From Bacteroidota bacterium (lineage in GTDB: Bacteria > Bacteroidota > Bacteroidia > B-17B0 > Aurantibacillaceae): 34,116 bases of DNA. Shown in pieces: positions 9,123 through 11,168 of this stretch. Position numbers and translations under genes: made by a program. The number at the start of each line of letters is the position of its first letter. Positions within the stretch are counted from its first letter, which is position 1. The stretch covers positions 1 to 34,116 of the forward strand of contig CANLAV010000010.1 of the NCBI GenBank assembly GCA_947487905.1. Reading direction: 5' to 3'. The notes beneath the pieces are model-generated. The model was not told where the DNA came from and made no database searches. It worked only from the letters and a program-made list of their open reading frames with translations.

Positions 9123-11168
9123 TTATTGTTTGATTAATTTTCCAATTTTAATTGTGTTAATGTTATACAATACTTTAAAAGTATAAATACCATTATCTAA
9201 ATTAAAAATATTAATTGAGTTTAATTCGCTAGTCAAAACATGTTTTACAACTAATTTACCTAACGCATCATAAACTTCTAATGAAGAGTTTTTAGATAAT
9301 TCTGAAGTTAAATTAATGTTTACTATTCCAGAAGTTGGACTAGGATATACAGAAATTGAATTAGAAACAGCTTCATTAATTCCTGTGCAAGGACTAACAT
9401 TAACTGTTACATTTCCATTTCCAACACAACCATTTGTTCCAATTGAACTTACAGTATAAGTAGATGTAACTGTTGGAGAAACTGAAACAGACATAGTTGT
9501 TGCACCTGTATTCCAAGTATAAGTTGTTGCAGAAGACGATGCTGTTAATATTGCATTTCCTCCAACACAAATTAATGAACTTGAACTTGTTGCTGAAACT
9601 AAAGGACTTGCACTTACTGTTACTGAACTAACAGTACTGCCTACACAACCTAATGTGCTAGTACCAGTTACTGTATAAGTTGCTGTTGCCGTTGGGCTTA
9701 CAACACTTCCGCTAGAATAAGTATAAGAACTTGCACCACTTCCTGAAATTGTAAATGAACTACCTGAACAAATTGTTCCGCTATTAGCAGTAATTGTAGG
9801 TAAAGCATTTACTGTTACAGTTGCAACTGCAGTGTTTGAACTTACACAACCTAAAGAACTTGTTCCCGTAACACTATAATTTGTATTAGCTGTTGGGCTA
9901 ACAACTGCTGAACCTCCAGAATAGGTATAAGTGTTTGCTCCGCTTGGCGAAAGTGTATAAGAACCGCCTGAACAAATTGCGCCACTTGTAACTGAAACTG
10001 TTGGTTTTGCATTAACTGTTACTGTAACTGAGGTACGAGAAACTGAAGTGCAAGCAACTCCTCCTAAATAGGTAATTATAACGGAGCCATTTCCTAAATT
10101 TACACCTGCAGTATTTATCTGACTAGTTCCAGAATTAAAAGATCCGCCACCACCAGCTCTTTCAGGATTACCAGGAGTTCCGCAAGCACCAGCGCCACCA
10201 GAATAACCTCCTCCAGCTCCACCGCCCCACCAAGATCCTACGTTATCTCGAGCGCCGCCGCCGCCGCCGAATCCACCTCCAACAAGACCTGTTCCGCCAG
10301 CCCCTCCATTTAAAAAAGCATAGCCAAAAGCTGGATCACTAGCCGTTCCATTAGTTAAAAAACCGCCGCCGCCGCCGCCGCCGCCGCCGCCGCCAGAACC
10401 ATTACCGCCGTTTCCAGCTGTTCCTGGTAAATAGGTTTGAAGACCAACAGTTGGCCAACCACCATATGCAACCTGTCCATTAGCTGTAGTTGTTCCATCA
10501 CATGTACTTGAGAGTAATGTAGAACTGCCTCCACCACCAGCAACAATTAATGGTGTAGTTCCAATTACTACAAAAGCACCTCCACCTCCACTAGTTGCAG
10601 GAATTGTAGTTAATCCTTGTTGGCCAACTAATATTTTTAAAACTTGGCCTGCTGTTAAAGAAAAAGTACCTCTAATAGATGCTCCTTTTCCGCCTGCTGA
10701 ACCACCACCTTGGGCACCCCTTGCCTCAATAGAATAATTACCCGTTGCAGGGATTGTAAATTGTTGAATACCAGCAACTACAGTAACTGATCCGTTTAAG
10801 TTTGTTGTAAGATAGGCTGCTGTTATTTGCGACGCTGTCGGCCCTACAGATCCTATTGCACCAGCATTAGTAAATGTGTATGTTGATGAAGCGGAAGCAA
10901 ATGATTCTGCATAATAAGTTGTAGTAGTAGTTGGGCTAATTGCAAAATTAGCCGCACTAGCACTTGAACCAATAGCAACACCACCAACCGGAACTGTAAA
11001 CCAATTAATAGATGCCCCTGATGCAGTTGCATTTATTGAAGTTGTTGCACCTGCGCATATAACGCTTGGAGTAGCCGTAACTAAAGTTGGAGTGGGACAT
11101 TGTGCACTTGCTGAATTAATTGCGAGAGCAATCAATCCAACCGAAAATAAATTGTAGATTCTTTTCAT
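9123..11168 (-). CDS. T9SS-exported protein with ALK/LTK-like glycine-rich domain and Ig-like repeats
   Basis: A 681-residue secreted protein. A Sec signal peptide covers residues 1-22 (ending NSASA, before Gln23). A short Ig-like module follows to about 95. Then comes a glycine-rich domain (about 97-370) that begins TFTNAGAIGSVGPTASQITAAY, has GIQQFTIPATGNYSIEARGAQGG, ILVGQQG and PLIVAGGGG, and contains an uninterrupted run of 11 glycines. This pattern fits the glycine-rich domain of the animal ALK/LTK receptors, which also occurs in bacteria. Three Ig/PKD-like repeats of about 66-80 residues follow (cores SGAICSGGSYT, SGTICSGSSFT). The last 75 or so residues (VYPSPTSGIVNINL ... LDNGIYTFKVLYN) form a T9SS type A sorting domain, so the product should cross the outer membrane and be attached or released. 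It is related in architecture to the gene at 1-2536. Precise function unknown. Confidence 0.9.
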   Translation of the reverse strand: MKRIYNLFSVGLIALAINSASAQCPTPTLVTATPSVICAGATTSINATASGASINWFTVPVGGVAIGSSASAANFAISPTTTTTYYAESFASASSTYTFTNAGAIGSVGPTASQITAAYLTTNLNGSVTVVAGIQQFTIPATGNYSIEARGAQGGGSAGGKGASIRGTFSLTAGQVLKILVGQQGLTTIPATSGGGGAFVVIGTTPLIVAGGGGSSTLLSSTCDGTTTANGQVAYGGWPTVGLQTYLPGTAGNGGNGSGGGGGGGGGGGFLTNGTASDPAFGYAFLNGGAGGTGLVGGGFGGGGGARDNVGSWWGGGAGGGYSGGAGACGTPGNPERAGGGGSFNSGTSQINTAGVNLGNGSVIITYLGGVACTSVSRTSVTVTVNAKPTVSVTSGAICSGGSYTLSPSGANTYTYSGGSAVVSPTANTNYSVTGTSSLGCVSSNTAVATVTVNALPTITANSGTICSGSSFTISGSGASSYTYSSGSVVSPTATATYTVTGTSTLGCVGSTVSSVTVSASPLVSATSSSSLICVGGNAILTASSSATTYTWNTGATTMSVSVSPTVTSTYTVSSIGTNGCVGNGNVTVNVSPCTGINEAVSNSISVYPSPTSGIVNINLTSELSKNSSLEVYDALGKLVVKHVLTSELNSINIFNLDNGIYTFKVLYNINTIKIGKLIKQ

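Follow-up and report, generated by a model that had tools for sequence, protein, structure and literature searches.

The human receptors ALK and LTK bind their cytokines through the TNF-like and glycine-rich (TG) region of the ectodomain (PMC10605310). Solved structures of this module (PF12810; PDB 7nx0, 7nx1, 7nwz, 7lrz) and of its nematode counterpart SCD-2 (PDB 7lir) are available. A related arrangement occurs in phage fibres: gp24 of cyanophage Pam3 (PDB 7ypx, 7yfw) has a conserved glycine-rich stem and a hypervariable tip proposed for host binding, and has been compared with nematode ALK (PMC9608196). The gp38 adhesins of T-even-type phages (S16, PP01) carry hypervariable receptor-binding loops on a poly-Gly II lattice; in PP01 these loops bind OmpC, as shown by cross-linking and mutation (PMC12892980).

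This article describes a bacterial relative of the ALK/LTK module, encoded in a 34,116-nucleotide stretch of a Bacteroidota contig (CANLAV010000010.1), hereafter the window. The 272-residue domain is homologous to the ligand-binding module of ALK and LTK and is not simply rich in glycine; it belongs to the already known ALK/LTK TG family. It sits in a cargo protein of the type IX secretion system (T9SS).

Architecture and Export of the Protein

The layout of the gene and its product is given in Table 1. The gene lies between uvrB (7002-9026) and ftsK (11439-14117), so that it has no telling operon. The source genome comprises 2.4 Mb in 205 contigs.

Table 1. Features of the gene and of the encoded 681-residue protein.
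Feature	Position	Strand	Basis
Gene, 681-aa T9SS-exported protein with ALK/LTK-type head	9123..11168	(-)	Translation and Pfam
Signal peptide, residues 1-23	11100..11168	(-)	By eye
Ig_7 (CHU_C-associated Ig-like) domain, residues 27-92	10893..11090	(-)	PF19081, 53.2 bits, cut-off 27.3
ALK/LTK-type TNF-like and glycine-rich (TG) head, residues 97-368, 272 aa	10065..10880	(-)	PDB searches, model, superposition
Short helix, domain residues 16-23, GPTxxQxxxAY motif region	10812..10835	(-)	DSSP on model and alignments
11-Gly run, residues 259-269	10362..10394	(-)	Codons (GGC)10+GGT
Ig-like repeat stalk, residues 369-606	9351..10064	(-)	ICxGxS...SGA motif repeated in translation
T9SS type A C-terminal sorting domain, residues 607-681	9126..9350	(-)	PF18962 and TIGR04183

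An earlier sequence-only reading had proposed a T9SS-exported protein in which an ALK/LTK-type glycine-rich domain is flanked by Ig-like repeats. Export is supported by Por_Secre_tail (PF18962, 5.3e-11 in the Pfam scan of the 681-residue protein) and by TIGR04183 on the sorting tail (41.6 bits against a cut-off of 23 in the NCBIfam scan), and the Ig-like flanks by Ig_7 (3.8e-14, two stretches in the same Pfam scan). The strings on which that reading relied (TFTNAGAIGSVGPTASQITAAY, GIQQFTIPATGNYSIEARGAQGG, ILVGQQG, PLIVAGGGG and the 11-Gly run) were all found in the reverse-strand translation of 9123-11168, and the limits it gave for the domain, 10060-10880, nearly coincide with those computed, 10065-10880. 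SprA, a core protein of the T9SS, is encoded in the same genome (2377.2 bits), as are 67 sorting domains, 66 of them above the cut-off; both marks of type A cargo, a sorting domain and a T9SS in the genome, are therefore present. At E<=1 the Pfam scan of the whole protein yielded Ig_7 and Por_Secre_tail only, so there is no kinase domain and the term receptor applies to the domain alone.

A second glycine-rich protein is encoded in the window by ORF 2-2536 (-). Its repeats resemble the Ig-like stalk described above, residues 285-525 form a true Gly_rich_2 domain (65.8 bits), and two trinucleotide tracts lie in the ORF, (CCG)6 at 1020-1037 and (CGC)8 at 1579-1602.

Homology to the ALK/LTK Module

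Searching 177,635 distinct PDB sequences with the domain as single query (phmmer) returned 10 matches at E<=1, namely eight ALK or LTK sequences (3.2e-12 to 1e-8) and two weak phage coat-protein rows (0.64-0.69); the matched stretch, domain residues 3-99, is poor in glycine. Profile A1, built from the window domain and 12 relatives (13 members), matched nine of the 177,635 sequences at E<=1, all of them ALK, LTK or SCD-2, with a best value of 4.7e-29. Its alignment with ALK includes a second stretch that spans the glycine-rich part and the last strand, so the likeness extends over the whole domain: the GPTxxQxxxAY helix, the GFGGGGG and GGGYxGG runs and the last strand are common to the bacterial head and ALK/LTK.

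One could argue that the domain is a generic bacterial Gly_rich_2 domain whose likeness to ALK arises from glycine composition. Pfam on the isolated full-length domain indeed yields a weak Gly_rich_2 match alone (0.06), and the PF12810 family search of the source genome gave no match. The ALK match, however, falls mainly within the glycine-poor first 97 residues. A profile built without the window domain scores that domain at 229.5 bits, whereas 1000 composition-preserving shuffles reach at most -8.2 bits and the true Gly_rich_2 domain of ORF 2-2536 scores -43.7 bits. The latter domain, taken as 947-1729 (-), matched 0 of the 177,635 PDB sequences at E<=1. With the composition correction of HMMER switched off, the real domain scored 316.2, the shuffles up to 92.5 and the neighbouring Gly_rich_2 domain 105.5; glycine alone can thus mislead, and the correction matters. 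Taken with the fold (Z 34 to LTK, see below) and a Gly_rich_2 score of 13.8 bits against a cut-off of 24.3 (PF21722), these sequence tests refute the generic identity, which we regard as almost certainly wrong.

Standard scans nevertheless pass over the head. Pfam on the whole protein reports nothing for it, and NCBIfam gave no match for the domain at E<=0.1. The ALK/LTK family profile PF12810 (ALK_LTK_GRD) exceeds its cut-off (34.0 against 24.5 bits) only when residues 95-223 are scanned alone; the family assignment expected from HMMER by the sequence-only reading thus held for this segment, while the full-length domain gave weak Gly_rich_2 only. The PF12810 match begins at residue 47 of the 129-residue query and the ALK alignment at residue 3, which indicates that PF12810 covers just a part of the common region. 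Among the 13 members of A1, PF12810 is matched at E<=1 in five and Gly_rich_2 in three. The PF12810 family search was likewise silent in all 14 control genomes, so its null result in the source genome is uninformative. Since a weak Gly_rich_2 match and an empty family search are what a standard scan delivers, such a scan alone would have mimicked the outcome named beforehand as speaking against an ALK-type domain, that is, a match to Gly_rich_2 only. Full-length scans probably miss the domain because glycine runs are down-weighted, and ALK-type domains that escape them constitute an annotation blind spot.

Predicted Fold

The AlphaFold2 model of the head (98 alignment rows) has a pLDDT of 94.7 and a pTM of 0.93. 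In a Foldseek search of the PDB, ALK, LTK and SCD-2 account for every one of the top 21 rows (E 1.5e-14 to 8.9e-7), after which E rises to 1.2 at row 22; sequence and fold both single out the ALK/LTK/SCD-2 group, as had been proposed. Superposition with VIA-align on LTK (7nx0) gave Z 34.3 at 1.5 Å over 230 of the 272 residues with 39% identity, and the ALK entries gave Z 32.4-34.3; over the ALK/LTK structures together the values are Z 32-34, 1.5-1.8 Å, 225-234 residues and 39-41% identity. By comparison with LTK, the predicted model contains the TNF-like sandwich with an inserted glycine-rich lattice. Poly-Gly helices in the head (domain residues 1-272), which the sequence-only reading had postulated and for which it had called for a comparison with the ALK ectodomain, are implied by this superposition of the model on solved LTK and ALK, as are poly-Gly II torsion angles and hexagonal packing. 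For SCD-2, which has the same fold, the values are lower (Z 21.9, 201 residues, 29% identity), and in its predicted structure the bacterial head is nearer to human ALK/LTK than to the nematode protein.

The window protein differs from ALK and LTK in several respects. Its head is shorter, with 272 residues where the ALK domain spans residues 683-984, and forms part of a T9SS cargo with Ig-like repeats. EGF-like, transmembrane and kinase regions were not found, and the acidic residues of ALK presumed to contact ALKAL are not retained.

Beyond this group the structural matches fall off: Z 7.7 over 123 residues for the Pam3 fibre, Z 7.4 for the Bxb1 tail tip and Z 4-5 for TNF-family proteins, where by the notes of the tool a Z below 8, as for Bxb1, may reflect a common arrangement only. 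The Pam3 match accordingly rests also on the published comparison of gp24 with nematode ALK (PMC9608196). Like the bacterial head, gp24 passes from a TNF-like sandwich into a glycine-rich lattice with variable tips; it differs in its much smaller lattice and in forming a trimeric fibre with a helical stem and a chaperone, and it was not matched in the PDB sequence searches with the domain (phmmer and A1 profile, 177,635 sequences). The gp38 adhesins resemble the head by analogy of mechanism. Their base is a beta-helix and not TNF-like, and the likeness is not taken as descent; S16 and PP01 gp38 were absent among the fold matches listed, and a relation may exist all the same.

Occurrence in Bacteria, Phages and Contigs Labelled as Archaeal

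Profile A3, which represents the glycine-poor part of the head, matched 48 of the 87 genomes of the order, the source genome included, with up to 13 matches per genome; a single-sequence search reached 43 of the 87. Across the phylum, 9 of 296 genomes matched, again with the source genome among them. The weaker matches span positions about 31-90 only, so some are without the N-terminal helix segment. Among named genomes, 79 loci were recovered, in 53 of which the best head is full length against the profile. Their titles are mostly of Bacteroidota, with Myxococcales, Verrucomicrobiota, Peregrinibacteria and several archaea besides; the spread beyond Bacteroidota is provisional, since many entries come from metagenome binning and some titles are plainly in error (two 'Klebsiella pneumoniae' bins).

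Contigs labelled as archaeal with ALK-type heads (L043, L061, L071, L085, L100) carry the bin labels Woesearchaeota, Nanoarchaeia, Nanohalarchaeota and Thermoplasmata. L061 carries Laminin G domains as well.

The viral scan gave 78 loci, 48 with a full-length head; scanning viruses with the neighbouring Gly_rich_2 domain found no relatives. At each of five chosen viral loci (5/5), a neighbour or the head protein itself matches a tail or virion PHROG family; two further neighbours had no match in the PHROG comparison. One phage head (locus L108) was modelled at pLDDT 92.6 and superposes on ALK with Z 32.5 at 2.2 Å over 249 residues; alignment A4 joins this head, the window head and 66 other relatives (68 rows). 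In tblastn against 50,697 phage records the window head found no match and a phage head found two, one of which is annotated in GenBank as 'ALK tyrosine kinase receptor'. Several of the matched viral models bear the name 'receptor protein-tyrosine kinase', and the likeness to ALK is thus already present in automatic annotation. A gene annotated 'ALK tyrosine kinase receptor', 8.5 kb long, occurs in Actinomycetia phage DSL-LC01 (L186:7551-16112), where it adjoins collagen-like genes.

Diversification of the Head

From the bacterial and viral loci 134 full-length heads were kept, or 123 after removal of near-duplicates; 97 of the 123, largely the best-scoring, and the window head form alignment A2 (98 rows). 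In A2, eight-residue blocks at the glycine runs have a mean entropy of 0.66-1.0 bit, while most segments between the runs reach 2.2-3.4 bits and accept insertions of up to 4-17 residues. In the sandwich, a hairpin turn (domain residues 105-112) is variable as well (2.4 bits, insertions of up to 9), so variability is not restricted to the glycine lattice.

Tandem arrays of genes with head, stalk and sorting tail were found in three genomes (L189, L190 and L191; G042:C5, G032:C45 and G017:C14), each with three or more such genes. Within the arrays the heads are 48-60% identical and the parts after the head 64-86%, the head being lower in 9/9 pairs; these counts omit L190:1058-3781, which has no head match, and L189:12839-14362, which matches weakly and runs off the end of its contig. 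When the heads are divided into core and between-run segments, identity is 58-72% in the former and 20-33% in the latter, in 10/10 pairs, the window pair included. This split is partly circular, because the limits of the two parts were drawn by eye on the entropy profile and A2 includes rows from two of the array genomes. Synonymous sites are near saturation in most array pairs; dN/dS was therefore dropped, and divergence is claimed, not positive selection. Gene conversion could account for the likeness of the stalks within arrays. The paralogue pair of the source genome shows the reverse pattern, with 60% identity in the head and 44% in the region after it, and the array result is thus not transferable to the window gene.

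At L189 and L190 the array adjoins a gene that by eye resembles a potassium transporter of the KUP type, a sign that both arrays may occupy the same locus. In L190:1058-3781 (-) the sorting-tail end of the array proteins is kept, the A1 profile detects no ALK-type head and the N-terminus differs (SQTFSFTGGTQSF); a head swap is possible.

Putative Role in Recognition

The reading we favour, with a rough probability of 0.62, is that the window gene encodes a T9SS-exported protein whose rigid, ALK/LTK-homologous head presents a variable binding face, and that the protein acts as an adhesin or as a recognition receptor lacking a kinase. Starting from the computed homology, predicted fold, architecture and divergence between the glycine runs, the protein would leave the cell by the Sec and type IX systems and either stay attached to the cell surface or be released from it. 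Glycine-rich strands would run out of the TNF-like beta-sandwich and pack as poly-Gly helices, sandwich and lattice together giving a rigid scaffold. The variable segments at the edge of the lattice may supply the binding face, with the Ig-like repeats acting as spacer, and the partner bound by the head outside the cell would itself be variable: a protein, a polymer on a surface or another cell. The precedent would be phage fibre tips, which have a scaffold of this kind. In related bacteria and in phages the head looks like a fast-changing recognition module, and a recognition role appears to be favoured by the array divergence, the between-run variability and the phage tail-fibre gene neighbours.

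The head might instead have a passive, structural role as a rigid cap or spacer of some matrix or fibre, and its variable segments would then drift unconstrained. The long indels between the glycine runs are as in unconstrained loops, and with synonymous sites near saturation selection is not demonstrated. We consider this explanation unlikely, as heads in the arrays diverge more than the Ig-like stalk, the likelier passive part, in 9/9 pairs, and ALK/LTK and, by proposal, phage fibre tips bind with this fold.

Recognition could also take the narrower form of a dedicated ligand-receptor pair between bacterial cells, in which the head takes as its ligand a polypeptide, soluble or displayed on a surface, much as ALK and LTK bind cytokines. 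The closest solved relatives are cytokine-binding domains, yet the positions that match E974 and E978 of human ALK, which we take to be ligand contacts, are variable over the 98 rows (domain residue 262 is T/N/S/other and 266 Y/S/Q/other, with the register taken from the A1 profile and the superposition), which makes an ALKAL-like ligand unlikely. As the protein shows no kinase domain either, such a pairing seems quite improbable.

Wider Relations

A human receptor domain of unusual fold is here linked to bacterial surface proteins and phage fibres, which opens a route to asking where the ALK ectodomain originated and what the first ligand of the fold was. Speculatively, and at less than even odds, the ALK/LTK ligand-binding domain may belong to an extensive family of recognition heads in prokaryotes and phages from which the ectodomain of the animal receptors was taken; Bacteroidota would generate binding diversity by duplicating the head in tandem and exchanging it on a T9SS-exported stalk that stays conserved. 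The tandem arrays, in which heads diverge and stalks are kept, supply proteins that can be tested directly in ligand screens. A literature search covering titles and the beginnings of abstracts, with few subscription papers, gave no study of a bacterial ALK-type domain, which is weak evidence of absence. Within that literature, which does not include the key ALK structure papers, no description was found of a T9SS architecture with an ALK-type head; nor was one found there of full ALK-type heads in a phage-fibre setting, or of tandem arrays whose heads differ while their stalks are kept.

The 11-Gly Run

The 11-Gly run, offered in the sequence-only reading as a sign of the fold, is present but is not key evidence. 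It is encoded in frame by a microsatellite, (CCG)10 on the + strand at 10363-10392, and is absent from the paralogue, which has a different, shorter sequence there. Given its position in a variable segment as well, its value as a sign of the fold is low; from its codons it looks like a microsatellite expansion. A change in the length of the (CCG)10 tract would alter the protein without a frameshift.
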